A DNA stretch of 41,511 nucleotides from Woeseiaceae bacterium (lineage in GTDB: Bacteria > Pseudomonadota > Gammaproteobacteria > Steroidobacterales > Woeseiaceae): contig JASJBG010000060.1 in assembly GCA_030066625.1 (NCBI GenBank), positions 1 through 41,511 of the forward strand, given 5' to 3'. Within the stretch, counting starts at the first letter, position 1. Each line of letters opens with the position of its first letter. The notes beneath the pieces were generated by a model. That model saw only the letters and a program-made list of their open reading frames with translations, ran no database searches and was not told the origin of the DNA. Position numbers and translations under genes: made by a program. Below are positions 10,315-30,495 of the stretch, piece by piece.

Positions 10315-11166
10315 TTAGCGGCCGAGCTCCGCGAAATGGAAGCGCAGGTGTTCCTCGATGAAGGTCGAGATGAAGTAGTAGCCGTGGTCGTAGCCGTCGT
10401 GGATACGCAATTCGAGCGGCAGGCCGCTTTCCTTGCACGCCGCCTCGAGCAGCTCCGGCTTGAGCTGCTCCGCGAGGTACGGGTCTTCGGCGCCCTGGTC
10501 GACCAAGATCTTCGAATAGCGATCCGTCGGCATCGTACGCGCCACCTCGGCGGCGTCGTAGATCTTCCAGGTCTCCTGATCGTCGCCCATGTAGTAGCCG
10601 AGCGCCTTCTGTCCCCATGGCGAATGCAAGGTCGTACAAATAGGTGCAAAAGCCGACAGCGAACGGAACATGTCCGTGTTGCGCAGGCCGATTGTCAGCG
10701 CACCATGGCCGCCCATCGAATGCCCCGTCAGGCCGTGGCGGTCCCGATCGCCCGGGAAGTTGTCGAACACGATGTCCTGCAGCTCGCCCGTTACGTAGTC
10801 GTACATGTGGTAGTGCGTGGACCAGGGCGGCTGGGTAGCGTTCAGGTAGAAACCGGCCGCCAGGCCAAAGTCGTAGTCTCGGTCCGGGTCGTCGGGAACA
10901 TCATCCCCGCGCGGGCTCGTGTCGGGCGACACGAGCATGAGCCCGAGCTCGGCCGCGACGCGCTGGGCACCGCTCTTCACCATGAAGTTCTCTTCGGTGC
11001 AGGTCAGGCCAGACAGGAAGGTGAGCACGGGCACCGGTCCGTCTGCCGCCTGCGGCGGGACGAAAACCGAGAACTGCATATTGCAGTGATTGGCCGACGA
11101 CGCGTGCCGGTAGAAGCCGATGCGACCGCCGAAGCAGTTCGTCTCGCTCAAGGTTTCGAGTGTCAT
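10315..11166 (-). CDS. fghA: S-formylglutathione hydrolase
   Basis: The 283-residue alpha/beta hydrolase has the nucleophile elbow GHSMGG (Ser150), the esterase D signature GLTCTEENF (with Cys56) and a late YDHGYYF motif carrying the predicted catalytic His. These match S-formylglutathione hydrolase (esterase D), which splits S-formylglutathione to formate and glutathione, the second step of glutathione-dependent formaldehyde removal in the cytoplasm. Length is normal for the family. The partner enzyme, glutathione-dependent formaldehyde dehydrogenase (class III alcohol dehydrogenase), is not in this window, which is unusual but not rare. It is followed at 15 bp by a TauE/SafE permease and preceded by fabB 40 bp upstream on the same strand. 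Confidence 0.94.
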   Translation of the reverse strand: MTLETLSETNCFGGRIGFYRHASSANHCNMQFSVFVPPQAADGPVPVLTFLSGLTCTEENFMVKSGAQRVAAELGLMLVSPDTSPRGDDVPDDPDRDYDFGLAAGFYLNATQPPWSTHYHMYDYVTGELQDIVFDNFPGDRDRHGLTGHSMGGHGALTIGLRNTDMFRSLSAFAPICTTLHSPWGQKALGYYMGDDQETWKIYDAAEVARTMPTDRYSKILVDQGAEDPYLAEQLKPELLEAACKESGLPLELRIHDGYDHGYYFISTFIEEHLRFHFAELGR

Positions 11167-11206: not shown

Positions 11207-12418
11207 TTACACTTTCTGGAATACGAGCGTCGCGTTGGTGCCGCCGAAACCGAAGCTGTTGGTCATCGCCGTCTCGAGACCCGCGGACTCGATCGTCTCG
11301 GTCACGAGCGGCAGGTCGCCAACGGCCGGGTCCGGGTCGACGACGTTGATCGACGGGGCGATGAAATCTTCGTTCAGCATCATGATGCAGTGCATTGCTT
11401 CCTGTGCGCCCGTGGCGCCGAGCGAATGGCCGCACATGGACTTTGACGAGCTGAACCGCGGCACGTCGTCGCCGAACACGTCGCGCATTGCCTCGAGTTC
11501 CTTGACGTCGCCGACCGGGGTACTGGTGCCGTGGGTGTTGATGTAGTCGATCTTCGGCCCGACGGTCGCCCTCGCGAGATTCATGCAGCGCGCCGCGCCC
11601 TCGCCCGACGGCGCCACCATGTCGAAGCCGTCCGAATTGGCGCCGTAGCCGACCAGCTCGGCGTAGATCTTCGCTCCGCGTGCCTTTGCGTGCTCGTACT
11701 CCTCGACCACGAACATCGCCGAACCCGCGGAACTCACGAAGCCGTCGCGATTGACGTCGTAGGGCCGCGAAGCAAGCCCGGGCGTGTCGTTGTACTGGGT
11801 CGACAGCGCGCCCATCGCGTCAAACATGCTCGACAGGTTCCAGTGCTCCTCCTCGCCGCCGCCGGCGAACACGATGTCCTGCTTGTTCAGCTGGATCTGC
11901 TCGGCGGCAGCACCGATGCAGTGCGCGCTGGTCGCGCAGGCCGACGTGATCGAGTAGTTGACGCCCTTGATCTTGAACGGCGTCGCGAGACAGGCGGACA
12001 CGGAGCTCGACATCGATCGGGGCACCATGTACGGGCCGATCTTGCGGACGCCGCGATTGCGCAGCGTATCCGAGCTGGTGATGATGTTCTCGCTCGACGC
12101 ACCGCCGGACGACGCTATGAGGCCCGAGCGCGGATTCGAGACGTCGCTTTCCTCGAGGCCCGCGTCCTCGATGGAGCGCTGCATCGCGATGTAGGCGTAC
12201 GCGGCGGCGTCGCCCATGAAGCGGCGCACCTTGCGGTCGATGTGCTCCTTGATGTCGATGTCGACGCTGCCAGATACCTGGCTGCGGAGCCCCATTTCCT
12301 TGAATGTCTCGTTGGCGACGATGCCCGAGCGACCCGCCTTCAGCGACTCGACGATGGATTCGTAGGTATTACCAATACACGTAATCGCACCGATACCGGT
12401 GATCACAACACGACGCAT
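11207..12418 (-). CDS. fabB: 3-oxoacyl-ACP synthase I (FabB)
   Basis: The 403-residue thiolase-fold condensing enzyme has the full Cys-His-His catalytic set: Cys161 in [12 protein letters not shown], His296 in [12 protein letters not shown] and His331 in [12 protein letters not shown]. The N-terminal [17 protein letters not shown] and the overall length fit FabB rather than FabF. FabB adds malonyl units to acyl-ACP and is needed to extend the cis-3-decenoyl-ACP made by FabA, so it commits carbon to unsaturated fatty acids. It lies 11 bp downstream of fabA, the usual fabA-fabB operon. FadR/FabR-type control is common for this pair, but no clear operator of that kind was recognised here. Confidence 0.95.
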
Positions 12419-13087: not shown

Positions 13088-14155
13088 TCAGGTCTTGTCA
13101 TAGTCGAGCACGAGTTCGGCGCTGACGGGGCGGGACTGGCAGGCCAGGACGAAGCCGGCCTCGACCTCCCAGGGCTCGAGGCCATAGTTGGTCGCCATCA
13201 CGACCTCACCCTCGCGTACGTGGCAGCGGCAGGTGGCGCAGACGCCACCCTTGCAGGAATACGGCAGCTCGATGCCGTGCTCTGCCGCGGCGTCGACGAC
13301 GTTGTCGTCGCTCGGATCCATGTCGAAATGCTTGCGATGGCCGTCCATGACGACCGTGACGGCGGCGCCCGTTGTTTCGGCGGCTTTCTCGGGCGCGGAC
13401 CCCTTCGTTTTGCGCGGCACGCCGAAGCGTTCGGAATGTACGGCCTCCGGCGGCAGCCCGAGCTCGACGAGCGCCGCGGAGACGGCATCGATCATCGTGT
13501 CCGGCCCACAGACAAAGGCCTCGTCCGCGGGCGTGCCGCGACAGAATGCCGTGTAGAGGTCGCGGACCTTGTCGGCGTCCAGCCGTCCCGCGGCGATCGG
13601 GAACTCCTGGTCCTCCTGGCTGAACACGAACTGCAGCTGCAGGCGATCGGGGTAGCGATTCTTCAGCGCGAACAGCTCGTCAATGAACATCGTCGTGGAC
13701 TGGCGGCGGTTGCCATAGAACAGCGCGAAACGGCTGTCCGGTTCGTCGCGCAGTATCGTCGCCATGATCGACAGGACGGGCGTGATGCCGCTGCCCGCCG
13801 CAAATCCGAGGTAGGTCTTCGCCTTGCCGGCGTCCGGCTCGGCGTGGAACTGGCCACCCGGCGGCATGACCAGGATCTCGTCACCGACAGCGAGCTCGTC
13901 GGCCGCGTACTCGGAGAACGCGCCGCCCGCTTGTACCCGAACCCCGATCTCGAGGGGCCAGTCGCCGGGCACCGAGCAGATGCTGTAGGTGCGTCGGAGC
14001 GTCTTGCCGTCGCGCTTGACGGAAACTGGCAGGTGTTGACCGGCCTGGAAGCTGAATTCGTCCTGCAGTTCGGCGGGCACCTCGAGTGCGATGCGCACCG
14101 AGTCCCGCGTCTCCGGGCGTTTGGCGGCAACCGTCAGTGGATGGTATTGCTTCAC
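13088..14155 (-). CDS. paaE: phenylacetyl-CoA epoxidase reductase subunit PaaE
   Basis: The 355-residue flavo-iron-sulfur reductase starts at GTG 14155, one base after the paaD stop (TGA-C-GTG), and has the usual PaaE length. Domain order is FAD-binding ferredoxin-reductase type (RTYS at 55-58), NAD(P)-binding (GSGITP at 121-126), then a C-terminal plant-type 2Fe-2S ferredoxin with Cys301, Cys306, Cys309 and Cys339 (CKGGVCATC and LAC). It passes electrons from NADPH to the PaaABC di-iron oxygenase that epoxidises phenylacetyl-CoA in the cytoplasm. It is the last gene of the paaXIABCDE series. The frame is open far upstream to 14425, but that part overlaps paaD and is not used. Confidence 0.96.
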   Translation of the reverse strand: MKQYHPLTVAAKRPETRDSVRIALEVPAELQDEFSFQAGQHLPVSVKRDGKTLRRTYSICSVPGDWPLEIGVRVQAGGAFSEYAADELAVGDEILVMPPGGQFHAEPDAGKAKTYLGFAAGSGITPVLSIMATILRDEPDSRFALFYGNRRQSTTMFIDELFALKNRYPDRLQLQFVFSQEDQEFPIAAGRLDADKVRDLYTAFCRGTPADEAFVCGPDTMIDAVSAALVELGLPPEAVHSERFGVPRKTKGSAPEKAAETTGAAVTVVMDGHRKHFDMDPSDDNVVDAAAEHGIELPYSCKGGVCATCRCHVREGEVVMATNYGLEPWEVEAGFVLACQSRPVSAELVLDYDKT

Positions 14156-14156
14156 G

Positions 14157-14654
14157 TCAGATGCACTTGAAGTATTCGAAGGGTTCGAGGCATTCGTCAC
14201 AGCGGTACGACGCCTTGCAGGCGGTCGAACCGAATTCGCTGACCAGCGACGTGGCGAGCGAGTCGCAGCGCGGGCAAGCGATCGCGCGACCGCCGCGCAA
14301 AAGCGCGCGCTTGCCGGCGCCCTCGGCGGGTGGCGCGATGCCGTAGGCCTTGAGCTTCTCGCGTCCTTCGTCGCTGATCCAGTCGGTGGTCCACGGCGGT
14401 GACAGCCGCCGCTCGATGGCGACATCGTCGAGGCCGTGTTCGCCCAGCGCGTCGACCACGCTTTGTTCTATCGCCTCGGTGGCCGGGCAGCCGGAATACG
14501 TCGGCGCGAGCGCGACGGTAACGGCGCCGCCGGACTCGTCGACGCGGACTTCGCGAACGATGCCGAGGTCGGTAATCGTCAGCACCGGGATTTCGGGGTC
14601 CGGCACCTCGTCCAGCCAGTGCATGACCTGCTCGGACGTGACGGCCGTGTTCAC
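14157..14654 (-). CDS. paaD: phenylacetyl-CoA epoxidase assembly protein PaaD
   Basis: A 165-residue protein, the standard PaaD size, starting at GTG 14654 inside the end of paaC (the GTGA overlap reuses the paaC stop). The N-terminal MIP18/DUF59 domain shows DPEIPVLTITDLGIVR and APTYSGCPATEAIEQ; the C-terminus adds a zinc-ribbon-like set of cysteines (ACPRC and later CKASYRCDEC, ending FKC). PaaD is thought to mature the metal site of the epoxidase or its reductase rather than catalyse. Overlap with paaC and one-base spacing to paaE show tight co-translation. A much longer frame reading to 14912 overlaps paaC and is rejected. Confidence 0.95.
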   Translation of the reverse strand: MNTAVTSEQVMHWLDEVPDPEIPVLTITDLGIVREVRVDESGGAVTVALAPTYSGCPATEAIEQSVVDALGEHGLDDVAIERRLSPPWTTDWISDEGREKLKAYGIAPPAEGAGKRALLRGGRAIACPRCDSLATSLVSEFGSTACKASYRCDECLEPFEYFKCI

Positions 14655-15409
14655 CAGGACGCTCCGGGATATGCGCGCTGCAGATGCTGCATCTCCGCGA
14701 TCAGGAAGCCCAGGTGCTCGGTGTGTAGCCCTTGCCTGCCACCCGTCGCCATGAAGGTCTCGCCAGGGACCGCGAGCGTCGCCTCCTCGAGGACTTCCGT
14801 CACGTTGGCCAGCCACTGCTCGCGGAGCGCGTCGAGATCGGGACCGCGAAACTCGCTCTGAAGGATCGAGTCGACCTCGTCGCCGGCGAAGAACTCGCCC
14901 GTGTAGCGCCACTGTTCGGCCAGCGACCTGGCTACCCTGGCATGGCTCTCGTCGGTTCCGTCACCCAGTCGTACGAGCCACTGCGCCGCATGCCGGAGGT
15001 GGTAACGAATCTCCTTCTCGGCGCGCGCCGCGATCTCGGCGAGCCGCTTGTCGCGACTGTCGGCGAGCGCTTCGAGCTGCAGCAGGTAGAAGGACTCGAA
15101 CAGGAACTGGCGGACGATGGCATCACCGAAGTGACCGTTCGGCTGCTCGGCGAGCAGGAAGTTGCGAAACTCCTGGGTGTCGCGGAGGTAGGCGAAGTCG
15201 TCTTCGCTGCGGCCCTCGCCTTCGAGCTCGCCCGCATACGTGTACAGCATGCGCGCCTGGCCGATGTAGTCGAGCGCAAAGTTGGCGTTGGCCAGCTCTT
15301 CCTCCAGCTCGGCTTCACCCGCGACCCGCTCGATCATGCGCTGACCCGTGATCAGCGCGTTGTCGGCTACCCGCAGGACGTAGGTCAGCAGCGCTTCGTC
15401 CGCGTTCAC
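14651..15409 (-). CDS. paaC: phenylacetyl-CoA epoxidase structural subunit PaaC
   Basis: The 252-residue ferritin-like protein starts at GTG 15409, overlapping the paaB stop by four bases (GTGA). Long amphipathic helices with LLTYVLRVADNALITGQRMIE, FALDYIGQARMLYTYAGELEG and RYHLRHAAQWLVRLGDGTDESH segments match PaaC, the non-catalytic partner that forms the PaaAC core of the oxygenase. It stabilises PaaA and helps position phenylacetyl-CoA. The end overlaps the start of paaD. The length is typical. The whole unit acts in the cytoplasm. Confidence 0.96.
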   Translation of the reverse strand: MNADEALLTYVLRVADNALITGQRMIERVAGEAELEEELANANFALDYIGQARMLYTYAGELEGEGRSEDDFAYLRDTQEFRNFLLAEQPNGHFGDAIVRQFLFESFYLLQLEALADSRDKRLAEIAARAEKEIRYHLRHAAQWLVRLGDGTDESHARVARSLAEQWRYTGEFFAGDEVDSILQSEFRGPDLDALREQWLANVTEVLEEATLAVPGETFMATGGRQGLHTEHLGFLIAEMQHLQRAYPGASW

Positions 15410-15690
15410 AGGTTCTCGACTCCGTCAGGCACCTCGTAGAACGTCGGGTGCCGGTAGATCTTGTCCTCGGCCGGTTCGAAGAATGCAGAGGTCTCTGCCG
15501 GATCCGACGCCACGATCTGGTCGGAGCGCACGACCCAGAGGCTCACGCCCTCCATGCGCCGCGTGTAGGTATCGCGCGCGTGATCGAGCGCCATCTGGTC
15601 GTCCGCCGCGTGCACGCTGCCCGCGTGTTTGTGCGACAGCCCCGAACGGCTGCGAATGAAGACTTCGTAGAGCGGCCATTCCTTGTTCAT
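15406..15690 (-). CDS. paaB: phenylacetyl-CoA epoxidase subunit PaaB
   Basis: The 94-residue protein reads WPLYEVFIRSRSGLSHKHAGSVHAADDQMALDHARDTYTRR and ends with FFEPAEDKIYRHPTFYEVPDGVENL, the usual PaaB sequence and size. A GAGGAGA ribosome-binding site precedes ATG 15690, which lies 11 bp after the paaA stop. PaaB bridges two PaaAC units and is needed for a stable active epoxidase complex. Its stop codon overlaps the paaC start. Confidence 0.96.
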   Translation of the reverse strand: MNKEWPLYEVFIRSRSGLSHKHAGSVHAADDQMALDHARDTYTRRMEGVSLWVVRSDQIVASDPAETSAFFEPAEDKIYRHPTFYEVPDGVENL

Positions 15691-15701
15691 CGTGATTCTC
15701 C

Positions 15702-16691
15702 TCAGGCGGCCTTCGCGGCCTGCTTGGCGGCATACGCCTGCGCGGCCTCACGCACCCAGGCACCGTCGTCGTGTGCGCCCTGGCGCTTGGCCATGCGCTG
15801 GCGGTTGCAGGGACCGTTGCCGGCGAGCACGTCGTAGAACTCCTGCCAGTCGATATCGCCGTATCGATAGTGGCCACTGGCCTCGTCGAGCTCGAGATCG
15901 TCGTCCGGCACCTTGAGGCCCAGGAACTCGGCCTGCGGCACTGTCACGTCAACGAATTTCTGGCGCAGCTCATCGTTCGAGAAGCGCTTGATCTTCCAGG
16001 CCATCGATTGTGCCGAGTGCTTCGAGTCCTTGTCGGACGGTCCGAACATCATCAGCGACGGCCACCACCAGCGAGTCAGCGCGTCCTGTGCCATGGCTTT
16101 CTGTTCGTCACTGCCGCGGGTGAGCTCGAGCATGATCTCGAAGCCCTGGCGCTGGTGAAAACTCTCTTCCTTGCAGATACGCACCATGGCGCGCGCGTAC
16201 GGACCGTAGGAGCAGCGGCACAGCGGAATCTGGTTCATGATCGCGGCGCCGTCGACGAGCCAGCCGATCGCACCGATGTCCGCCCAGGTCAGCGTCGGGT
16301 AATTGAAGATACTCGAGTACTTGGCCTTGCCCGCCAGCAGGTCGGCAACCATCTGGTCACGCGACACCCCGAGTGTCTCGGCCGCGCTGTACAGGTACAG
16401 ACCGTGACCGGCCTCGTCCTGGACCTTCGCGAGCAGGATGGCCTTGCGCTTCAGCGACGGCGCGCGCGTCAGCCAGTTGCCTTCGGGCTGCATGCCGATG
16501 ATCTCGGAATGCGCGTGTTGCGAGATCTGCCGAACCAGCGTTCGCCGGTAAGCCTCCGGCATCCAGTCCTTGGCCTCGATTTTTTCTTCGGCGTCGATCC
16601 GCGCCTGGAACGCGGCGAGCTGCTCGGCACTCTCTTCGACCGCCGCCGGTTTCGACGTTTGTCCTTTCTGGTCAAGACCTTGCGTGTACAT
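15702..16691 (-). CDS. paaA: phenylacetyl-CoA epoxidase catalytic subunit PaaA
   Basis: The 329-residue di-iron oxygenase subunit starts at ATG 16691 after a GAGGA site. It carries the ferritin-like metal-binding helices with [16 protein letters not shown] (E-x-x-H) and [15 protein letters not shown] (E-x-x-x-H region), plus the early [32 protein letters not shown] segment typical of PaaA. With PaaB, PaaC and PaaE it converts phenylacetyl-CoA, O2 and NADPH to ring-1,2-epoxyphenylacetyl-CoA in the cytoplasm. It lies 42 bp downstream of paaI, the largest gap inside the operon, so a secondary promoter there cannot be excluded. Confidence 0.97.
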
Positions 16692-16733
16692 AGGCGGATC
16701 CTCGGGCGTGCCGCTTCGTGGATCGCTAATGTG

Positions 16734-17192
16734 TCACGCTTTGTCGCCAGATTCAAGAGATTCTGTATCGCTTTGTAGGAGGCCCTCCGCCCGGCTGGCG
16801 GAGCGGCCGCGAAACAGGGCCACGCGTTCGTCGTCCTGGTTCAGGACCTCGACGGAGTACACGCCCGACCGACCACCGCGGTGCTCTTCGACCGCGGTGG
16901 CCGTCAAAACGTCGTCGCGGCGCGCGGGCTTCAAAAACTCGATGTTGGCGGCGGCGGCCACCGTAAGGCGATCGTAGGCGTTGCAGGCAAACGCAAACGC
17001 GGTGTCGGCGAGCGTGAAGATCAGGCCGCCGTGGCAAACGTCGAAGCCGTTCACCATGTCGTCGCGCACGCGCATGCTCGCGATCGCCTGCCCGGCCTTT
17101 GGAATCTCGATGTCGATTCCCAGCGCGCGCGATGCGGCATCGGCCGCGTACATCGTGTCCGCACAGCGCCGCGCGGTGTCGAGGTCACTCAT
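16734..17192 (-). CDS. paaI: hydroxyphenylacetyl-CoA thioesterase PaaI
   Basis: A 152-residue hotdog thioesterase. The catalytic segment NGFDVCHGGLIFTLADTAFAFACN has the N-x-x-x-x-x-H-G-G-x-x-x-x-L-x-D layout of PaaI, with the Asp on the central helix. PaaI hydrolyses CoA esters of phenylacetyl and ring-hydroxylated phenylacetyl groups; it is thought to rescue CoA when pathway intermediates stall. The ATG at 17192 overlaps the paaX stop (ATGA). In E. coli paaI lies further along the main operon; here it is placed directly after the regulator. Confidence 0.94.
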   Translation of the reverse strand: MSDLDTARRCADTMYAADAASRALGIDIEIPKAGQAIASMRVRDDMVNGFDVCHGGLIFTLADTAFAFACNAYDRLTVAAAANIEFLKPARRDDVLTATAVEEHRGGRSGVYSVEVLNQDDERVALFRGRSASRAEGLLQSDTESLESGDKA

Positions 17193-18127
17193 TTCTTGCC
17201 TCCAAGGCCGCCGAAGCGATCAAGATACTCACGATCCGGCGGCGGCAGCGCGCCGTCTGCGTTCTGCATCGTCGCCGTGAGGTACGCGTCGCAGGGTTTC
17301 GAGAGGCGCCGATACAGCCTGCGGCAGATTTGGTACGCCTCGGCCCCGTGCCAGTCATTCGGCAGAAGCTCGTCCGGCATCTGCGGATCGCGCAGCAGGA
17401 TCTTTCGATACTCCTGTATCAGCAGTGTGCGAATGAGGAACGCCGTCTTCGGCAGGACCACCGTGTCGTCGGCCAGGGCATCGTGCGCCGGCCGAAAGCG
17501 CTGCACGAATTCAGCATAGCGTTCGTCGAGTTCGCCGAGCTTCCAGGAGTCGGTGGCCAGCGCACGCATCGCCTCGTCGCTGTGCACGGTGTGGCCCGTA
17601 ACGACGACGACCTCTGCCGCCACGCCGAGGCGACTCAGGGTCTTGTCGAGATCCTCGCGATTCGGTGCCGGGTGCGCGATCACGTTGGTGCTCAGCGCTC
17701 CGAAACCGAGCCAGCCGCACTCCCGCTTGACCAGGTCACGGGTCACGGCATTGAGCTGCGGCAGCAGCACGAAACACCAGTAGCCGTCCCAATCGCCTGA
17801 CGGCTTGCCGTAGATCCGGTGCGTCGCACTCTTGAAGCGCTCGCGGCCATCCTCGGTCAGGCTGTAGTAGGAACGTCTTCCCTGCTGTACGGACTTGAGC
17901 CAGCCGTCGCGGGCGAGCCGGAACACCGAGGTCCGGACCAGCCGCTCGTTGATGCCGAAATCGGCCATGGCCGTGATCAGGCTGCCGAGCCAGACGGTGC
18001 CGCCGCGCGGCGCGATCGAATCGCCGAACACGGTTGTGATCAGCGAACCCGCGCGGATCGTCGGCCGCGACTGGAACTCGTCGACGAGGGCCGCGCAGGC
18101 ATCATCAATGGTCTTGCTTGCTTTCAC
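17189..18127 (-). CDS. paaX: phenylacetyl-CoA-responsive repressor PaaX
   Basis: A 312-residue regulator beginning with GTG 18127; a ribosome-binding site is not obvious, which fits low expression. Recognisable PaaX blocks are GSLITTVFGDSIAPRGGTVWLGSLI, the winged-helix part INERLVRTSVFRLARDGWLKSVQQGRRSYYSLT, IYGKPSGDWDGYW, and a C-terminal LLLRDPQMPDELLP-NDWHGAEAYQICRRLYR region. PaaX is a GntR-like repressor released from DNA by phenylacetyl-CoA. It heads the operon it presumably controls and is divergent from paaZ, with a predicted operator in the shared 96-bp gap, so it probably represses itself and both transcripts. Confidence 0.96.
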   Translation of the reverse strand: MKASKTIDDACAALVDEFQSRPTIRAGSLITTVFGDSIAPRGGTVWLGSLITAMADFGINERLVRTSVFRLARDGWLKSVQQGRRSYYSLTEDGRERFKSATHRIYGKPSGDWDGYWCFVLLPQLNAVTRDLVKRECGWLGFGALSTNVIAHPAPNREDLDKTLSRLGVAAEVVVVTGHTVHSDEAMRALATDSWKLGELDERYAEFVQRFRPAHDALADDTVVLPKTAFLIRTLLIQEYRKILLRDPQMPDELLPNDWHGAEAYQICRRLYRRLSKPCDAYLTATMQNADGALPPPDREYLDRFGGLGGKK

Positions 18128-18146
18128 TTCGGCCCAACGTACAATT

Positions 18147-18185
18147 TGATACGGAATTATTCAATTTCCTGATTATTTTGTATCT
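18147..18185. promoter_or_regulatory. predicted PaaX operator in the paaX-paaZ divergent gap
   Basis: TGATAC (18147-18152) and GTATCT (18180-18185) form an inverted repeat (GATAC/GTATC exact) separated by exactly 27 bases of AT-rich sequence. The published E. coli PaaX site, as I recall it, is TGATTC-N27-GAATCA, so half-site start and spacing agree, with one base per arm changed in a symmetric way. Its location between paaX and paaZ is what an operator for both would need. Inferred, not tested. Confidence 0.7.
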
Positions 18186-18223
18186 TTCCGGCTGTTCAAC
18201 CGCCGCCACCAGGAGCCCCCGCC

Positions 18224-20272
18224 ATGAAGCTCGGTAATCTCGTTTTGGACCGCTGGATCGAAGGCGACGGCGACGGCAAACCGCTGGCGAGCGCTGTCGA
18301 CGGCGAGACCGTCGCCAACATCACCAGCGCCGGCCTCGACTTCGGCGCGATGCTGGAGCACGCACGCAGCGTCGGCGGGACAAACTTAAGGCAGCTGACC
18401 TTCCACGAGCGTGGCGAGATGTTGAAGGCACTCGCCAAGTACCTGATGGACCGGAAAAGCGAGTTCTATGGGTTATCGACCCGCACCGGTGCGACACGTG
18501 CCGACAGCTGGATCGATATCGACGGTGGCATCTCGACGCTGTTCGTTTTCTCGAGCAAGGGCCGCCGCGAGATGCCGAACGATCATATTTATCTCGACGG
18601 CCCTCCGGAACCGCTGTCGCGTAACGGCACTTTCGTCGGCCAGCATATCTATACGTCGAAGCTCGGCGCCGCTGTGCATATCAATGCCTTCAACTTCCCG
18701 GTCTGGGGCATGCTCGAGAAACTCGCGCCGACGCTGCTCGCTGGCGTGCCCGCCATCGTCAAGCCGGCGTCGAGCACCGCCTATCTGACGGAGCTCGTCG
18801 TCCGCGCGATCATCGAGTCAGAGATACTGCCGGCCGGTTCGCTGCAGCTGATCTGCGGCGGTGTCGGCGACCTGTTCGATCACCTGAATTGTCAGGACAC
18901 GATCGCGTTCACCGGATCAAAGTCGACGGCAGAGATGCTGCAGCAGCACCCGCGCGTGATTGCGGAGTCGGTTGCATTCACGGCCGAGACCGACTCGCTG
19001 AATGCCTCGATCCTCGGTCCCGATGCCGTGTCCGGTACGCCGGAGTTCGACCTGTACGTCAACGAGGTCGTGCGCGAGATGACCGTCAAGGCTGGCCAGA
19101 AGTGCACGGCGATTCGCCGCGTGATCGCGCCGTCGGCGATTGCCGCCGACCTCGTTCGTGCGCTGTCGGAGAAGCTGGGCGAAGTACGGATTGGAGATCC
19201 CGGTTCGAAAGAAGTCGATATGGGTGCGCTCGCAAGCCAGGGCCAGCGCTCCGAGGTTCGCGAACGCGTCGACGAGCTGGCCAGCGAAGCAGCCATCGTG
19301 CACGGCGGCAGCGACGACTTCGACGTCGTCGACGCGGATGCGAAACGCGGTGCCTTCTTCATGCCGACGCTGCTGCACTGCGAGAAACCGCTCGGTGCCG
19401 CGGCCGTGCACTCGGTCGAAGCCTTCGGCCCGGTCAGCACGGTGCTGCCCTATGACAATCTCGATGAAGCCATCGAACTGGCCCGCCTGGGCGAAGGCAG
19501 CCTCGCAGGCTCCGTGGTTACCAACGACAACGCGGTGGCGCGAGAACTGATTCTCGGCACCGCTGCCTATCACGGCCGCATGCTGGTCATTAACCGCCAC
19601 TGCGCGGCCGAATCCACGGGCCACGGCTCGCCGCTGCCGCACCTCGTGCATGGCGGCCCGGGACGTGCGGGCGGCGGCGAAGAAATGGGCGGCGTCCGCG
19701 GCGTCAAGCACTACATGCAGCGCACGGCCATCCAGGGCTCGCCCGAGACGCTGAGCGTCATCGGCAATCGCTGGATTCGCGGCGCCGACCAACGTGAATC
19801 GGAAACGCACCCGTTCCGCAAGACCTTCGAGCAAATCGCAATCGGCGACACGCTCGTGACGGAATCGCGCGAGGTCACGCTCGAAGACATTAATCACTTC
19901 GCCGACTTCACGGGCGACACCTTCTACGCGCACACGGACGAGGACGCGGCGAAAAAGAACCCGTTCTTCGAGGGCCGGGTTGCGCACGGCTACCTGATCG
20001 TGTCCTTCGCGGCAGGCCTGTTCGTCGACCCGGATTTCGGTCCGGTACTCGCCAACTACGGTATCGACGACCTCCGCTTCCTGACCCCGCTCAACTACGG
20101 CGACTCGATGCGTGTTCGCCTGGCCTGCAAGCAGAAGACCCTGCGCGGCGACTCCGGCTACGGCGAGGTGCGCTGGGACACGGAAGTCACGAACCAGGAC
20201 GGCGAGATCGTCGCGCAGTACGACGTTCTGACGATGGTCGCGACCGACGCACATTGGGCATCGGTGCAGTAA
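18224..20272 (+). CDS. paaZ: bifunctional oxepin-CoA hydrolase / 3-oxo-5,6-dehydrosuberyl-CoA semialdehyde dehydrogenase PaaZ
   Basis: The 682-residue fusion starts at ATG 18224 after AGGAG. Residues 1 to about 520 are an aldehyde dehydrogenase with general base Glu255 (FTAETDSLN) and nucleophile Cys294 (GQKCTAI). The rest is an (R)-specific enoyl-CoA hydratase (MaoC-like) domain with Asp565 and His570 in GDTFYAHTDED. Both active sites are intact. PaaZ opens the oxepin-CoA ring hydrolytically and oxidises the resulting aldehyde with NADP+, the ring-cleavage step of the pathway. It is divergent from the paaX operon. The isomerase PaaG, which makes oxepin-CoA, and the beta-oxidation enzymes PaaF, PaaH and PaaJ are not in the window. 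Confidence 0.97.
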   Translation: MKLGNLVLDRWIEGDGDGKPLASAVDGETVANITSAGLDFGAMLEHARSVGGTNLRQLTFHERGEMLKALAKYLMDRKSEFYGLSTRTGATRADSWIDIDGGISTLFVFSSKGRREMPNDHIYLDGPPEPLSRNGTFVGQHIYTSKLGAAVHINAFNFPVWGMLEKLAPTLLAGVPAIVKPASSTAYLTELVVRAIIESEILPAGSLQLICGGVGDLFDHLNCQDTIAFTGSKSTAEMLQQHPRVIAESVAFTAETDSLNASILGPDAVSGTPEFDLYVNEVVREMTVKAGQKCTAIRRVIAPSAIAADLVRALSEKLGEVRIGDPGSKEVDMGALASQGQRSEVRERVDELASEAAIVHGGSDDFDVVDADAKRGAFFMPTLLHCEKPLGAAAVHSVEAFGPVSTVLPYDNLDEAIELARLGEGSLAGSVVTNDNAVARELILGTAAYHGRMLVINRHCAAESTGHGSPLPHLVHGGPGRAGGGEEMGGVRGVKHYMQRTAIQGSPETLSVIGNRWIRGADQRESETHPFRKTFEQIAIGDTLVTESREVTLEDINHFADFTGDTFYAHTDEDAAKKNPFFEGRVAHGYLIVSFAAGLFVDPDFGPVLANYGIDDLRFLTPLNYGDSMRVRLACKQKTLRGDSGYGEVRWDTEVTNQDGEIVAQYDVLTMVATDAHWASVQ

Positions 20273-24104: not shown

Positions 24105-24124
24105 GCGCTGACTGGCGTCAGCGC
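24105..24124. terminator. hairpin between convergent genes, possible terminator
   Basis: GCGCTGAC / GTCAGCGC stem of eight bp with a TGGC loop directly after the TonB receptor stop and reaching into the end of the convergent PEP-CTERM gene. No T-run follows on either strand, so it is at most a weak or Rho-assisted terminator. Confidence 0.4.
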
Positions 24125-24672
24125 GCGCGCCGGCGCAGGAGCGCGCCGAGGAACAGCCCGATTGCCAGCAGCGGCAGGATGCCCGGCTCGGGTACTTCCT
24201 GCATCGAGAAATCCCCGCTGCCGTCAGTCTGGAACCACCAGGTGCCGTTCAGGAAGGTGTCGAAGAAACTGCCGGTCGTCGAATAGATGTCGTCGACACG
24301 CAGCACGCCGTAATAACCCGTATTAATGTTGTTCCAGACGAGGAAGGTGCCGATGCCCATCGGGTCGACGTCGGCGTCGCCGACCGGACCGACGGAGTCG
24401 GCCGTGAAGTCGAAGATTGACGCGTCGGTGATCTGGGAGATATCGGTTACGCCAGTGGCGATGGCGACATCGCTGTCGCCGGTAAAGCCGCTGCCGTAGA
24501 AAAAGCCGAAATCGAGCGTGGCGATCGACCAGAACAGCGTGACGTCGTTGATGCCGTCGCCAATCGTGATATTCGGACCGGACTCGGGCCAGTCGACAAT
24601 ATTGCCGGTAATGACGTCCGCGTTCGCCGAAAAGGGCAACGCGACCAACAGGATCGCCAGGTACTTGCGCAT
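24118..24672 (-). CDS. PEP-CTERM sorting-domain protein
   Basis: The 184-residue protein starts at ATG 24672 after AGGGAAA; the longer frame to 24711 adds an implausible leader. A signal peptide (MRKYLAILLVALPFSANA) leads to a Gly/Asp/Thr-rich beta-type body and a C-terminal VPEPG, hydrophobic helix (ILPLLAIGLFLGALL) and RRRAR tail, i.e. the exosortase-recognised PEP-CTERM signal. It is therefore expected to be exported and processed at the cell surface. The body (e.g. FFYGSGFTGDSDVAIATGVTDISQITDASIFDFTADSVGPVG) has no recognised domain, although such segments recur in other PEP-CTERM proteins. It converges on the TonB receptor gene. Confidence 0.9.
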   Translation of the reverse strand: MRKYLAILLVALPFSANADVITGNIVDWPESGPNITIGDGINDVTLFWSIATLDFGFFYGSGFTGDSDVAIATGVTDISQITDASIFDFTADSVGPVGDADVDPMGIGTFLVWNNINTGYYGVLRVDDIYSTTGSFFDTFLNGTWWFQTDGSGDFSMQEVPEPGILPLLAIGLFLGALLRRRAR

Positions 24673-24866
24673 CGCTCGTTTCCCTATGTTGTTGTTCGTT
24701 GTTCCAGCCACGGCGGGTCCGTATCTGGTCGAATCACGTTAGCAGACTCCTGCCGGCGCCGGAACGCGTTTTTACCTGTCGATTATTCTGACATCCGGCG
24801 GTCACTAACCCGAAAACCGGACCTCGGTCGCGGCACGCCCGGCGCGTGGTCGCTAGCATTGGCCGC

Positions 24867-25262
24867 ATGTCATTGATCTCTTGGGCAATTGTGCTGATTG
24901 GTGCCGGCCTTTTCATGGCCGTGCTCTGGCAGACCGCCATCGTCTACTCCATGCGCCCGGAGAACTGCAGCAGCGCACGGCTGCGGTGGATGTTCGCGAC
25001 TCACGGTCTGTCAGTCGCGGCGCTCGGCCTGCTGCTGTTCCTGTACGGCGGCGGCTACCGCGCGACACCGTTCGACGACGTCTTTGGCATCCTGTTCATG
25101 GTGGCCGGCCCGCTCGTCGCAGTCGAGGCGCTGCTCGTGCCGCGTGACAAGCTCGTCAAGCGAACGCAGCTACTGACGCACGCGTGGTGGGAGGTGGACC
25201 TCTCCGACGAGACGGAAGTCTCGCCAGCCGATCGCGTTCGCAAATTGCGCAATCGCAACTAA
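24867..25262 (+). CDS. small membrane protein of unknown function
   Basis: A 131-residue protein. ATG 24867 is chosen because it places the first membrane helix (LISWAIVLIGAGLFMAVLW) at the N-terminus; a GTG at 24846 would add seven residues. No strong ribosome-binding site is visible. Three hydrophobic segments (about residues 3-24, 45-63, 72-92) are followed by a charged C-terminal tail (KRTQLLTHAWWEVDLSDETEVSPADRVRKLRNRN) expected to be cytoplasmic. Its stop overlaps that of the convergent oxidase gene. No family is recognised. The preceding gap 24673-24866 shows nothing identifiable. Confidence 0.55.
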   Translation: MSLISWAIVLIGAGLFMAVLWQTAIVYSMRPENCSSARLRWMFATHGLSVAALGLLLFLYGGGYRATPFDDVFGILFMVAGPLVAVEALLVPRDKLVKRTQLLTHAWWEVDLSDETEVSPADRVRKLRNRN

Positions 25263-26410
25263 CCGAAGCCAGCAAACAGGCTTGCGTGTGCATCGACGAT
25301 GCGCTCGGTCTCGTCGGCCTCAACGTGACGCGTGTAGTCGCCCGGCTTGAACGTACCGCCGAGCAGCAGGACGTCGGAGCGCGGGAACATATAGAGAACC
25401 CCGCTGCCACCACCAAACGTGAAGTAATCGATGGCAGGGTCCGGTGGCAGAAAAACGAGCTGCCCCTTCGCCGCTGTCAACTCTTCATCGCCGAAGAGTT
25501 CGCCGGCACCGAGACCCGTGCAGTTGAAGATCACGCCTTCGTCGAGCGACAGCACGTCGCTCAGAGTCGCGAACTCGCGAACGACGAAACGGCCACCGGC
25601 TACCTGGAAGTCCTGCACGAGCCGTCTCAGCAATACGCCCGGGTCGATCTGCATCGTCACGAAGCGCTGCGCGTACCAGTCGCCGAACGGATGCTCGCCC
25701 GGCTCGAGGTTGGCCTTGTGCGCGAACAGTGACGCGATCTCAGCCCGGCCGTCGAAACCGTCGAACGGCCGCCCGCGCAGCGTGTAGCCCTCCAGAAAGC
25801 GTATGCCGTAGTCGGGGCCCGTCAGGTTGGTGTAAGCGTGGTGCGAAACGCGCGAGGCCCAGTCGAGCTGTGACAGGAAGGCCGGAGACGCCCGCGACCC
25901 CTCGTAGACGCTGTACGGCGCCCATTCGCCCGCCGCGACGTTCGAGGTCGTGTGTCGCCAGACGTCACGCGTGTAGATGGTGACGTTCCAGCCTGCGTCC
26001 TGCAGAAGTCGCGCGCTGGTCAGTCCCATGATGCCGCTGCCGATCACCGCGACGTCGCCGGGCTGCATCCCGACAGTCTCCCGCACCGCCAGCGCCGAAG
26101 AACCCCAGGACAGGCTCAGGCCGCCGCCACCGTGGCCATAGTTGTGAACGATGGTCTTCTGATCGTAGGTTTCGCTCTTCACGACGAATCCAGAAGGCCG
26201 ATACGGACGATGGCCGACGATTGTCCGAATCACTGCTCCGCTCGACACGCGCGGTTTTGCCCAGGGTTCCCGCGAGTACGGCCGCGGGTAAGTCTTGCTT
26301 GCGACGGTTGGTACCGGCGCGCACGCGGCAACCGCCGCGCCTGCGGCAACCGAAGCAGCCGCTTTGAGTATGCTGCGACGGCTGCGCGGTTCTTGTTTTC
26401 GTTGTTTCAC
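25259..26410 (-). CDS. Tat-exported D-amino-acid oxidase-like flavoprotein with circularly permuted domain order
   Basis: A 383-residue protein. Residues 10-40 form a Tat signal (RSRRSILK, alanine-rich helix, AAC). Residues 60-110 hold VGHRPYRP and IVHNYGHGGGGLSLSWG, which in D-amino-acid and D-aspartate oxidases occur near the C-terminus. Only then comes the Rossmann motif VIGSGIMGL (122-130) that normally opens the protein, followed by AAGEWAPY, NCTGLGAGE (296-304) and LGGTFKPGD (about 350-358), and the protein stops where the Arg-x-x-Arg segment would usually follow. This is a circular permutation with all major FAD motifs kept. Substrate-carboxylate Arg (Arg71) is present. The predicted reaction is oxidative deamination of a D-amino acid to a 2-oxo acid, ammonia and H2O2, in the periplasm. 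It lies 10 bp after the Lrp-type regulator, so it is probably in that transcript. Confidence 0.85.
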   Translation of the reverse strand: MKQRKQEPRSRRSILKAAASVAAGAAVAACAPVPTVASKTYPRPYSREPWAKPRVSSGAVIRTIVGHRPYRPSGFVVKSETYDQKTIVHNYGHGGGGLSLSWGSSALAVRETVGMQPGDVAVIGSGIMGLTSARLLQDAGWNVTIYTRDVWRHTTSNVAAGEWAPYSVYEGSRASPAFLSQLDWASRVSHHAYTNLTGPDYGIRFLEGYTLRGRPFDGFDGRAEIASLFAHKANLEPGEHPFGDWYAQRFVTMQIDPGVLLRRLVQDFQVAGGRFVVREFATLSDVLSLDEGVIFNCTGLGAGELFGDEELTAAKGQLVFLPPDPAIDYFTFGGGSGVLYMFPRSDVLLLGGTFKPGDYTRHVEADETERIVDAHASLFAGFG

Positions 26411-26420
26411 TGCTTCTCCC

Positions 26421-26879
26421 TCAGGTTCGGAATGGCAGCGCCGTGTCGGTCTTGATCTCCTTCAGGATGATGTTCGACCGAACCTGCGACACACCCGGCA
26501 GACGAAAGATGAAGTCGTCGAGAAATTCATTGTACGCATCGATGTCTTCGACGACGACGCGCAGGTGGAAGTCGGCTTCGCCGCTCGTCGAGAAGCACTC
26601 CAGCACCTCGGGGTGGCGCAGGACCTCGCGGATGAACATCTCGACGTTCTTCTGCTCGTGGCGGGCGAGCGAGACGTGAACGATCGAGGACAGGCCAAAG
26701 CCGGCCTTCTTCGTGTTGACGATCACCGCGTAGCGGTCGATGACGCCCTGCGCCTCGAGCTGTTTCACGCGCCGCCAGCATGCCGAGCTGGACATGCCCA
26801 CACGCTCCGCGAGCTCCTGCATCGTCAGGCGGCTGTCGTTCTGAAGTTCGGCCAGGATGCGGCGGTCGCGAGACTCCAT
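26421..26879 (-). CDS. Lrp/AsnC family transcriptional regulator
   Basis: A 152-residue regulator. ATG 26879 (MESRDRRILAELQNDSRLTMQELAERVGMSSSACWRRVKQLE) is preferred because it gives the normal Lrp/AsnC length and follows GGGGAA; the frame is open to 27053. The N-terminal helix-turn-helix is followed by the RAM ligand-binding domain (VHVSLARHEQKNVEMFIREVLRHPEVLECFSTSGEADFHLRVVVEDIDAYNEFLDDF). Such proteins respond to amino acids and commonly control adjacent amino-acid catabolic genes. It is divergent from the indolepyruvate oxidoreductase gene, with 154 bp between starts, and upstream of the oxidase-like gene, so both are its likely targets. Confidence 0.92.
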   Translation of the reverse strand: MESRDRRILAELQNDSRLTMQELAERVGMSSSACWRRVKQLEAQGVIDRYAVIVNTKKAGFGLSSIVHVSLARHEQKNVEMFIREVLRHPEVLECFSTSGEADFHLRVVVEDIDAYNEFLDDFIFRLPGVSQVRSNIILKEIKTDTALPFRT

Positions 26880-27033
26880 CTGTTTCCCCAAGTGCGGATT
26901 TTCGGCAAATTCTATCATTTTTCCGCAATTTCTCGAATTCTGTCCCGAAATATGCCCGTCTGGTGGGAAGATAGGCATCACTTCACGGCCCGCTTCTGCG
27001 ACACTATGAAGTTCAAATGTCCCGAGCATCGCA

Positions 27034-30000
27034 ATGGCCGCCACCGCCGACACCCTGACCCGCTACCCGCTCGACAACTACGAGCTTCTGGATCGCTACC
27101 GCCGTGAGTCAGGACGTGTCTTTCTGACCGGCACGCAGGCGCTCGTGCGAATCGCGCTCATGCAGCGCACGATCGACAAGGCGGCGGGGCTCAACACGGC
27201 GGGATTCATCTCCGGCTATCGCGGCTCCCCGCTCGGTGCCGTCGACCAGGAACTCTGGCGCGCGAAGAAATTCCTCGACGAGAATCACATCGAGTTCCTG
27301 CCGGCCGTCAACGAGGACCTGGCCGCGACGGCACTGCTTGGCTCGCAGCAGGTCGAGACGGACCCGCATCGCGAGGTCGACGGTGTATTCGGCATCTGGT
27401 ACGGCAAGGGACCGGGGGTGGACCGGGCGGGCGACGCGCTGAAACACGGCAATGCGTACGGCAGCTCACCGCATGGTGGCGCGCTCGTGGTTGCCGGCGA
27501 CGACCATGGCTGCGTCTCGTCGTCGATGCCGCACCAGTCGGACGTCGCGTTCCTCACCTTCATGATGCCGCATCTGAATCCGGCCAACGTGGCCGAGTAC
27601 CTCGAGTTCGGCCTATACGGAATTGCGCTGTCGCGCTTCTCGGGCATGTGGGTCGGTTTCAAGGCGATCTCCGAAACGGTTGAGTCGGCGATGTCGGTCG
27701 AACTGCCGCCCTACCCGGAGTACGCGGCACCGGACTACACGCCGCCGGCCACAGGGCTGCACTATCGCTGGCCGGACTTCCCGGGCCCGCAGATCGAGGA
27801 ACGACTGGAAGCCAAGAAAGCGGCCACGCTGGCGTTTGCCGCGGCCAACCCGATCGACCGCAAGGTCTTCGACATCACCGACGCACGCTACGGCATCGTC
27901 ACGACGGGCAAGGCACATCTCGATCTCATGGAAGCACTGCGGCTGCTCGGCATCGACCGCCGCGAAGCCAGACGCATCGGTCTCGACGTCTACAAAGTCG
28001 GCATGGTCTGGCCGCTCGAAAACGAAGGTGCACTCGACTTCGTGCAGAGAAAGAACGAGGTGCTGGTTGTCGAGGAAAAACGCGGCATCATCGAGAGCCA
28101 GTTCAAGGAATACTTCTATGACTACCCGGGCAAAAAGCCCGAGCGGATGGTCGGCAAGGAAGACGACAACGGCGAACGGCTGGTGCCGTGGGTCGGCGAG
28201 CTCGAGCCCGTGCAGCTTGCCGGCATCGTCGCCCGGCGCCTGGACGCGGAGATGCCCGGACTCGATATGACCGCCCGCGCCGAGAAACTGCTGACGCGCG
28301 GCAGCAACATCATCGACATCCAGGGTGCGACACGCATTCCCTACTTCTGTTCGGGCTGCCCGCACAACACGTCGACGAAAGTACCCGAGGGTTCGAAAGC
28401 GCTCGCCGGCATCGGCTGTCACTTCATGGCGAGCTGGATGAAGCGCGATACCGACGGCCTGATCCAGATGGGCGGCGAAGGCGTCAACTGGGTGTCGCGG
28501 TCCAGGTTCAACGGCAACCGGCACATCTTCCAGAATCTCGGCGACGGTACCTTTTATCATTCGGGTTCGGTTGCAATCCGCCAGGCCGTCGCCGCTGGCA
28601 CGAATATCACCTTCAAGATTCTCTACAACGACGCGGTCGCAATGACCGGCGGTCAGCCCGTCGACGGCCCGATCTCCGTGCAGGCGATCGCGCACTCGAT
28701 TCGCGCCGAGGGTATCGACCGCATCGCGCTGGTCACGGACGAACCGGAGCAGTTCAGCCTGGCGGACTTCCCCGCCGGTACGACCCTGTCGCACCGCAGG
28801 GAACTCGACGCGATCCAGCGGGAGCTGCGCGACATCCCGGGCGTCACCGTGCTTATCTACGCGCAGACCTGCGCAACCGAGAAGCGCCGGCGCCGCAAGC
28901 GTGGCCTCATGGAAGACCCGAACAGGTTTGTCGTTATCAACGACCTCGTCTGCGAAGGCTGCGGCGACTGCTCCGTCGAATCGAACTGCCTGTCGGTCGT
29001 GCCGAAGGAGACGCCTTTCGGTCGCAAGCGGCAGATCGACCAGAACAGCTGCAACAAGGATTATTCGTGCGTCAACGGATTCTGTCCGAGCTTCGTTACG
29101 GTCGAGGGCGGCAAGCGGCAGGCTTTGGCCGCCGAGGTCAAAACGGCCGACGCCTCGGCACTGCCCGCACCTGACATGCTGCCGATCGACGACTGCTTCG
29201 ATCTCCTCGTCACGGGCGTCGGCGGAACGGGCGTGGTCACGGTGGGCCAGCTAATCACGATGGCGGCGCACCTCGAAGGCAAGGGCTCTTCCGTGCTCGA
29301 CTTCATGGGCTTCGCGCAGAAGTTCGGGCCGGTATTGAGCTACATTCGTATTGCGAACGAGCCGGCGGCGATCAACCAGGTGCGTATCGAGCAGGCCCGC
29401 GCCGACGCGCTGATCGGCTGCGACCTCGTCGTCAGCTCCGCGCCGAAAGCATCGACGACCTATGGCGCCTCGCGCACACAGGCCGTCGTCAACACTGCGG
29501 AAATGGCGACCGGCGACTTCGTCAGGCATCGCGACGCAAACCTGCGTGCCGACGAGCGAATCGAAGCGATCGGCCGAGCCGTGCACACGCTGTCGACCGT
29601 CGACGCGAACGCTCTTGCCGCGAAGCTCATGGGCGACACGATCTACGCAAACGTGCTGCTGCTCGGCTACGCCTGGCAGAAAGGGCTCGTGCCGGTCAGC
29701 GAAGCGGCGCTGCTGCGCGCGATCGAGCTCAACGCCGTCAAGGTCGATAACAACAAGCAGGCGTTCGGCTGGGGCCGTATCGCGGCGGCCGATCCCGACC
29801 AGCTCGACAGGGCACTCAACGGCGACGAACCGAGAATCACCGACGCGACGCTCGATGAGGTCATCGCTCGGCGGCGTGCATTCCTCGTCGACTACGACGG
29901 CGAGAACTACGCAGCCGAGTATGAGGAACTCGTCAGAGAGACGCTCGAAGATGAGCGACGGCTCGTTGACAGCGAGGAACTCACCGACGCGGTCGCACGC

Positions 30001-30495
30001 AGCTACTTCAAGCTGCTCGCGATCAAAGACGAGTACGAAGTGGCGCGGCTGCACACTCAGACCGGCTTCCTCGAATCGATACGCCGCGACTACGGCGACA
30101 ACGCGAAGGTCCGCTTCCATCTTGCACCGCCGGTCCTGAACGGCAAGCGCGACGCTCGCGGCCGGCCGCTCAAGAAGCAGTTCGGCAGCTGGATGATCCC
30201 GGTCTTCCGCGTCCTCGCTGCCATGAAGCGCCTGCGCGGCACGGCCTTCGACGTATTCGGCATGACGGCCGAGCGGCGAATGGAACGCGAACTCGTGGGC
30301 GAGTTCATCGAAACCCTCGGCTACCTGATCGACAACCTGACGGTGGACAATCACGCCACCGCCTGCGAGATCGTCCATGCGTACATGGACATTCGCGGCT
30401 ACGGACCGGTCAAGGAAGAGGCCGTCACCGAGGTGCGCGAACGCATCAAGACACTCATGAAGAGCTTCCTGCAGACGGTGCCCAAGGCCGCCTAG
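27034..30495 (+). CDS. indolepyruvate ferredoxin oxidoreductase, fused alpha-beta-gamma type
   Basis: A 1153-residue 2-oxoacid:ferredoxin oxidoreductase. The N-terminal pyrimidine-binding region has GTQALVRIALMQRTIDKAAGLNTAGFISGYRGSP; a cysteine set CSGCPHNT (about residue 450) precedes the thiamine-pyrophosphate motif GDGTFYHSGSVAIRQAVAAG with NDAVAMTGGQ (about 503-545). A ferredoxin-like CEGCGDCSVESNC cluster and CNKDYSCVNGFCPSF (about 640-690) follow, then a gamma-type domain with LLVTGVGGTGVVTVGQL (about 727). It should oxidise aryl-pyruvates (indole-, phenyl-, hydroxyphenylpyruvate) with CoA to aryl-acetyl-CoA, reducing ferredoxin. Phenylacetyl-CoA is the direct substrate of the paa enzymes encoded upstream. 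The start ATG 27034 has a weak ribosome-binding site. Confidence 0.93.
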   Translation: MAATADTLTRYPLDNYELLDRYRRESGRVFLTGTQALVRIALMQRTIDKAAGLNTAGFISGYRGSPLGAVDQELWRAKKFLDENHIEFLPAVNEDLAATALLGSQQVETDPHREVDGVFGIWYGKGPGVDRAGDALKHGNAYGSSPHGGALVVAGDDHGCVSSSMPHQSDVAFLTFMMPHLNPANVAEYLEFGLYGIALSRFSGMWVGFKAISETVESAMSVELPPYPEYAAPDYTPPATGLHYRWPDFPGPQIEERLEAKKAATLAFAAANPIDRKVFDITDARYGIVTTGKAHLDLMEALRLLGIDRREARRIGLDVYKVGMVWPLENEGALDFVQRKNEVLVVEEKRGIIESQFKEYFYDYPGKKPERMVGKEDDNGERLVPWVGELEPVQLAGIVARRLDAEMPGLDMTARAEKLLTRGSNIIDIQGATRIPYFCSGCPHNTSTKVPEGSKALAGIGCHFMASWMKRDTDGLIQMGGEGVNWVSRSRFNGNRHIFQNLGDGTFYHSGSVAIRQAVAAGTNITFKILYNDAVAMTGGQPVDGPISVQAIAHSIRAEGIDRIALVTDEPEQFSLADFPAGTTLSHRRELDAIQRELRDIPGVTVLIYAQTCATEKRRRRKRGLMEDPNRFVVINDLVCEGCGDCSVESNCLSVVPKETPFGRKRQIDQNSCNKDYSCVNGFCPSFVTVEGGKRQALAAEVKTADASALPAPDMLPIDDCFDLLVTGVGGTGVVTVGQLITMAAHLEGKGSSVLDFMGFAQKFGPVLSYIRIANEPAAINQVRIEQARADALIGCDLVVSSAPKASTTYGASRTQAVVNTAEMATGDFVRHRDANLRADERIEAIGRAVHTLSTVDANALAAKLMGDTIYANVLLLGYAWQKGLVPVSEAALLRAIELNAVKVDNNKQAFGWGRIAAADPDQLDRALNGDEPRITDATLDEVIARRRAFLVDYDGENYAAEYEELVRETLEDERRLVDSEELTDAVARSYFKLLAIKDEYEVARLHTQTGFLESIRRDYGDNAKVRFHLAPPVLNGKRDARGRPLKKQFGSWMIPVFRVLAAMKRLRGTAFDVFGMTAERRMERELVGEFIETLGYLIDNLTVDNHATACEIVHAYMDIRGYGPVKEEAVTEVRERIKTLMKSFLQTVPKAA

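Follow-up and report, generated by a model that had tools for sequence, protein, structure and literature searches.

The closest described relatives of the protein reported here are pig and human D-amino acid oxidase (DAO; EC 1.4.3.3; PDB entries 1kif and 2du8) and human D-aspartate oxidase (DASPO; 6rkf). In pig DAO we take R283 to be the arginine that binds the substrate carboxylate, and G313 and Y228 to be substrate residues; in DASPO, R216 and R237 are presumably the arginines that hold the side chain of D-Asp. DAO also carries what we take to be a peroxisomal tail, which is absent from the protein reported here.

Canonical bacterial DAOs, as found in Streptomyces, Streptantibioticus, Nocardia, Tsukamurella, Burkholderia glumae and Vibrio, have the same motifs as this protein, with the FAD-binding GxGxxG motif first and YGHG last. 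According to the available part of PMC9844085, only three bacterial DAOs have been cloned and described and just over ten bacterial DAO genes are known, all in 'Acinetobacteria' (as printed; probably Actinobacteria); its main text, to the extent available, mentions neither a permutation nor a signal. The accessible portions of PMC4699246 and PMC6131576 do not mention permutation, and in that of PMC4432964 the term 'circular permutation' is present and 'amino acid oxidase' absent. No earlier description of a permuted DAO was found in the titles and abstract beginnings of the open-licence literature, which is weak evidence.

The window, that is, the whole stretch of DNA analyzed, comprises 41,511 nucleotides from a Woeseiaceae bacterium (contig JASJBG010000060.1). 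A gene on its minus strand (positions 25259..26410; GTG start, stop codon at 25259-25261) codes for a DAO-like flavoprotein of 383 aa. The original prediction held that the motif order of this protein is inverted relative to known DAOs, and the translation bears this out: R68-P-Y-R71 (26198..26209, minus strand), HNYGHGG at residues 89-95 (26126..26146, minus strand) and W102 all precede the GxGxxG FAD motif at residues 124-129 (26024..26041, minus strand). A second copy of the motifs further downstream was absent, YGHG occurring once in the translation. The canonical order, FAD motif first and HNYGHGG last, is thus reversed, and we therefore class the protein as a permuted form of DAO rather than among the ordinary enzymes of the family.

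The motifs are strongly conserved. In an alignment of 76 proteins (alignment A2, with L018, L020, L025, L043 and L062 left out), R68 and R71, the residues H89, N90, Y91, H93 and G95, and the glycines G124, G126 and G129 were each found in 76/76. All 76 proteins matched the Pfam DAO profile (PF01266) at E <= 0.001. The window protein matched it in two stretches (E 1.4e-28; 100.9 bits, cut-off 27.9), the best of which placed residues 119-380 on profile positions 1-298 of 353. A search of its own genome with the same profile gave 18 rows; the window protein ended at profile position 300, and 5 of the 17 others extended to position 351-353.

Among the 25 best NCBIfam models listed for the protein, none reached its cut-off. 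The best by E-value was glycine oxidase ThiO (TIGR02352; 48.4 bits, cut-off 250.8). A DadA-type D-amino-acid dehydrogenase model (NF001933; 24.7 bits, cut-off 383) has the FAD-binding start, residues 120-165, in common with the window protein.

Human DASPO was the best match by sequence, and its alignment fell into two blocks in swapped order: residues 114-373 on positions 9-265 of 6rkf (i-E 4.6e-18) and residues 52-110 on positions 271-332 (i-E 6.5e-6). Two stretches were obtained from 16 of the 17 DAO/DASPO PDB sequences found at E < 0.001 (stretch threshold E 10). When the front block was put at the end of the chain, 15 of the 17 gave a single stretch that spanned almost the complete protein; the total score for 6rkf barely altered (97.1 to 97.3 bits), the two stretches having become one. 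In a control cut at residue 200, the best 6rkf stretch spanned only positions 141-332 (89.0 bits).

Behind the signal, three parts of the chain can be distinguished, all on the minus strand: a moved block (residues 53-110; 26081..26254), which is C-terminal in canonical DAO (about 268-327 of pig DAO) and N-terminal here; a linker (residues 111-117; 26060..26080), which, by the DSSP assignment of the model described below, bridges the helix that was formerly C-terminal and the strand that was formerly N-terminal; and an FAD and substrate domain (residues 118-383; 25262..26059), equivalent to pig DAO 1-269. By sequence alignment residue 53 lies opposite pig DAO 268, and in the superposed model residue 381 pairs with 269, so that the C-terminus of the window protein falls within 1-2 residues of the point where the block begins, just as had been claimed. 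Hence both blocks are significant, swapped and together nearly of whole length, and the new ends are adjacent at the break.

An AlphaFold2 model of the window protein, built from 76 sequences, reached a pLDDT of 91.0 and a pTM of 0.85 for the whole chain, with residues 51-110 at pLDDT 96-99. In the model the moved block consists of strands 62-70, 76-82 and 85-91 and helix 94-110, and about 7 residues (111-117) link this helix to strand 119-123. VIA-align, which covers Foldseek candidates only and in which Z rows within 1 of each other count as ties, superposed model residues 118-381 on pig DAO 1-269 (1kif; Z 22.7, 2.2 A, 252 residues) and residues 115-382 on DASPO 1-264 (Z 23.3, 2.3 A, 256 residues), the highest Z of all. 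The shared fold of residues 118-381 gave a Z of 22.4 with human DAO (2du8), and ThiO, a related fold, scored lower (16.9-18.0) than the DAO/DASPO entries (20.8-23.3). Foldseek and VIA-align matched only the ordered part of the model; the proposed position of residues 60-110, in the place of the canonical C-terminal segment, rests on the sequence alignment and on the high confidence of these residues within the full model.

The N-terminal block folded by itself (45 sequences) gave a weak model (pLDDT 69.8, pTM 0.41). A structural search with the lone block yielded nothing at E <= 0.001; second in rank was D-aspartate oxidase 9vpf, with E 2.1. This result could be taken to mean that a truncated DAO has been fused behind an unrelated domain which merely resembles the C-terminal segment of DAO. 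We consider such a fusion highly improbable: the block matches the genuine C-terminal segment at the significance given above, R68, R71 and HNYGH are invariant in the 76 proteins, and the same residues that fold weakly alone are modeled with very high confidence in the whole chain. A weak fold of the lone block is as expected of a piece which is not itself a domain, and is no proof.

The distribution of the gene was analyzed in several sets of genomes. The window's own genome showed no second gene of this kind, the next best match having an E of 0.0235. In a first set, 8/60 genomes matched, the window's own included; of the seven others, five had full-length proteins at 53-74% identity, one was truncated where its contig ends and another matched only around the FAD motif. 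Species genomes were also scanned, and of the 568 relatives detected the best 80 all had the permuted order (80/80), the best segment of each passing through both motifs in sequence. As the ranking was by resemblance to a query that was itself permuted, the proportion is biased and uninformative on the frequency of canonical genes. YGHG occurs once in each of the 80, and the spacing from YGHG to GxGxxG is 33 in 71/79 measurable relatives of this set. Scored by regular expression, the permuted order was found in 76/80: L064, L081 and L089 are without the GxGxxG expression and L068 has an extra match in its signal. All four are in alignment A2, in which the three FAD-motif glycines are invariant.

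These best 80 of 568 include Gammaproteobacteria (Woeseiaceae, Alteromonas, Dokdonella), Alphaproteobacteria (Sphingomonas, Sphingopyxis, Blastomonas, Hyphomonas), Acidobacteriota, Gemmatimonadota, Bacteroidota (Ekhidna lutea), Verrucomicrobiota (Luteolibacter), Zixiibacteriota and others, and among them are the named strains Blastomonas natatoria DSM 3183 and Ekhidna lutea DSM 19307. Searches with a permuted profile gave matches in 35/296 genomes of the window's own order and 20/398 of its phylum (the window's own genome counted in both) and in 15/289 of one other class, four of which are also in the phylum set; strict E-values were used and few candidates were scored per genome, so these counts may miss canonical genes. 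The matches in the other class include a canonical protein (L152) and a long-branched permuted one (L153). The latter is a very divergent permuted DAO with a different leader, from a genome of 1.9 Mb. On plasmid pOM4 of Mesorhizobium onobrychidis (L132:2735-3798) the gene is split between two annotated CDS and is possibly a decayed copy. Among the viral contigs searched for relatives, 2 stretches fitted a pattern and none was confirmed.

That the permuted order is a one-off, produced by the assembly or by gene calling, can be rejected. The source assembly consists of 236 contigs and no support for an artefact was found; the same order recurs throughout the 80 relatives, in many assemblies and in the two named strains, and this explanation is refuted. 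Sequence comparison, near-coincident breakpoints, a confident model and the occurrence in other genomes together support the claim of the original prediction that the ORF is intact and its permutation a truly circular one.

For phylogenetic analysis, 70 permuted proteins, put back in canonical order, were combined with 11 canonical ones after L153 (long branch) and L142 (a near-copy of L141) had been dropped; the permuted rows are a chosen subset and the canonical rows are few. In this unrooted tree of 81 rows, permuted and canonical proteins were split on one branch with support of 100/99, found in 100% of 200 bootstrap trees. A quicker unrooted tree of 83 rows (71 permuted, L153 among them, and 12 canonical), drawn from a selection of the same kind, showed the same split with an SH-aLRT of 99, and L153 at the end of a branch of 4.59. 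Canonical bacterial DAOs fall on the opposite side of the split; ten of them (L128-L131, L138-L142 and L152) were aligned by the family HMM in stretches that are separate and swapped in order. The single split is as expected of one ancient permutation, which is the simplest reading and not a demonstrated one, since both trees are unrooted.

The N-terminal 30 residues of the window protein (26321..26410, minus strand) form a predicted Tat lipoprotein signal, with RR at residues 11-12 in the stretch SRRSILK and a lipobox V-A-A-C30. A signal of the twin-arginine type had been proposed and is confirmed; the lipobox cysteine at its end was not part of that description. In alignment A2, RR is present in 75/76 and C30 in 71/76 proteins. 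A [RK]R pair together with a hydrophobic stretch was found in 80/81 proteins, Luteolibacter L057 being the sole exception, and a lipobox was recognized by regular expression in 71, a figure that overlooks cysteines visible by eye in L043, L065 and L068 (in L068 the best twin-arginine candidate lies further along the chain). On these sequence features the family members are probably Tat lipoproteins.

The Pfam TAT_signal profile scored the window protein at 16.9 bits, below its cut-off of 22.7, and was matched at E <= 1 by 14/76 members. Together with the existence of signal-less permuted relatives, this would favor a cytoplasmic protein whose twin-arginine segment is not an export signal. In view of the near-universal RR pair, the cysteine in 71/76 and the hydrophobic stretch in all proteins except one, we find a cytoplasmic location improbable, and export by the Tat pathway remains the preferred reading.

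Inspection by eye revealed four permuted proteins with neither twin arginines nor a hydrophobic stretch: L123 (Rhizobium ruizarguesonis), L127 (Bradyrhizobium elkanii), L126 (Nonomuraea gerenzanensis) and L120. In the 81-row tree these four and L122, which has a twin-arginine signal, form a clade at 100/100, and the four by themselves form one only weakly (84/13); a branch supported at 99/99 divides these five and the canonical rows from the remaining 65 permuted rows. Since some permuted relatives lack a signal, permutation can be separated from export. A strict link between the two is thereby rejected, and the proposal that the permutation may have 'allowed' a Tat signal to be placed on the protein is not supported as the only reason for it.

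By alignment, R68, G95 and Y340 of the window protein are the equivalents of pig DAO R283, G313 and Y228, so that all three substrate positions of the pig and human enzymes are kept; in the rearranged-sequence alignment pig Y224 has no counterpart. R68 and G95 are present in 76/76 proteins of alignment A2. Residue 340 is Tyr in 55/76, the window protein included, and His in 18/76, and the substrates may therefore vary; His at this position may mark a subgroup with another substrate. R344, opposite Gly 232 of pig DAO, is invariant (76/76).

The two DASPO side-chain arginines, R216 and R237, lie opposite G333 and F354, and position 354 is R in only 4/76 proteins of alignment A2. The sequence GGTF is common to the window protein and the pig and human DAOs where DASPO has GGTR. 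With both arginines replaced, a neutral or aromatic D-amino acid is a likelier substrate than D-Asp. The window protein thus differs from human DASPO in these two positions and in being permuted, and from pig and human DAO in being permuted and in carrying a twin-arginine/lipobox signal.

The genes around the DAO gene suggest aromatic D-amino acids as substrates. Directly upstream is an Lrp/AsnC-type regulator (26421..27053, minus strand; Pfam AsnC_trans_reg, 3.8e-22); as called, this ORF overlaps the divergent gene at 27034-30495, and its start is probably internal, because the domain matches begin at residue 60. The divergent gene (27034..30495, plus strand) codes for a protein of 1153 aa with the domains POR (1.4e-16) and DUF6537 (2.4e-62), an architecture which we take to be that of the indolepyruvate ferredoxin oxidoreductase (IOR) type. 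Phenylacetate-degradation genes, identified by Pfam matches (PaaE-like, PaaA/PaaC family, PaaX and PaaZ-like, where PaaE-like and PaaZ-like are names we assigned from domain make-up), lie at 13088..20272, and further neighbors, also by Pfam, are a TonB receptor, a gamma-glutamyltranspeptidase (GGT) and a DcuC carrier. The region 13088-36359 of the window appears as an aromatic-acid island (Paa, IOR-like, GGT, DcuC, TonB receptor) enclosing the DAO gene. A protein with a PEP-CTERM motif is encoded at 24118-24711, between the TonB receptor and the DAO gene.

This organization is not a general feature. In one relative (genome G021, locus L157) the DAO gene is surrounded by homologues of DcuC, GGT, the IOR-like protein, Lrp, the TonB receptor, PaaZ, PaaX and PaaA/C; this was 1/16 relatives with wider flanks, several of these stretches being cut by contig ends. 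Homologues of two other window genes (10315-11166 and 11207-12418) are present in L167. No conserved operon partner was detected in flanks of up to 6 kb, the largest recurrent neighbor family being found in 7/81 loci. With the paa/IOR cluster in 1/16 relatives and no neighbor family in more than 7/81 loci, an aromatic role is at best local. For the local use, the gene content suggests a route from a D-aromatic amino acid through an arylpyruvate and an arylacetyl-CoA to ring cleavage.

Two rhizobia of different genera have another arrangement (L123:2482-6708 and L127:2363-6690; plasmid), in which the signal-less permuted DAO is flanked on one side by a berberine-bridge-type FAD oxidase and on the other by a TPP enzyme, which is possibly a user of 2-oxo acids. 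On a plasmid of Kozakia baliensis (L125:2839-4499) a cytochrome c gene lies directly 3' of the permuted DAO and might code for an electron acceptor.

Production of H2O2 in the periplasm would be costly. This cost, the cytochrome c gene downstream of the Kozakia relative, His at position 340 in 18/76 proteins and the invariant R344 could mean that the permutation is real and the enzyme is no longer a DAO, having become either a dehydrogenase with a cytochrome or quinone as electron acceptor or an enzyme for another amine. This alternative is, in our judgment, less likely than not, since the carboxylate arginine, HNYGH and the equivalent of G313 are invariant in 76/76, and no neighbor family of any kind occurs in more than 7/81 loci (cytochromes were not sought by name).

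We favor, with a probability of roughly 0.7, the reading that the window protein is a naturally circularly permuted member of the DAO family, exported by the Tat pathway, anchored by lipid and oxidizing D-amino acids. The alignments show that the chain was opened between the equivalents of pig DAO 268 and 269. About 7 residues now connect the former C-terminal helix with what was the first FAD strand, and a Tat signal with a lipobox precedes the new N-terminus in most relatives. The permuted form most simply arose once, judging from the unrooted trees, and now occurs in several Gram-negative phyla. Most likely the protein takes up FAD as it folds in the cytoplasm, crosses the membrane by the Tat pathway and is held in the periplasm by lipid on Cys30. 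There it would act on D-amino acids with neutral or aromatic side chains, converting them to 2-oxo acids by means of the equivalents of R283, Y228 and G313. In this species an arylpyruvate may then pass to the neighboring indolepyruvate-type oxidoreductase and the phenylacetyl-CoA pathway, a step suggested by the gene cluster and the weakest of the scheme.

A wider reading, which we offer tentatively and at somewhat less than even odds, is that a single ancient permutation founded a whole branch of DAOs, the main DAO form of Gram-negative phyla, most members of which would be lipid-anchored on the periplasmic side. This branch may have been overlooked because homology matches are broken up when the order is reversed. 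Its 2-oxo acid products might, in some lineages, carry the carbon of D-amino acids on to thiamine-pyrophosphate-type enzymes (IOR/Paa in this species, the TPP enzyme in rhizobia).

DAO is a textbook flavoenzyme, and a natural permutation that keeps its catalytic blocks across phyla is a rare experiment on the order of the parts of a fold. The recurrence of the rearrangement across phyla may partly explain the apparent rarity of bacterial DAOs. The presence of permuted DAOs in Pseudomonadota, Acidobacteriota and Gemmatimonadota would alter the picture of bacterial DAOs given in the available part of PMC9844085. On the strength of its predicted signals, the family would also offer candidate secreted DAOs for testing.
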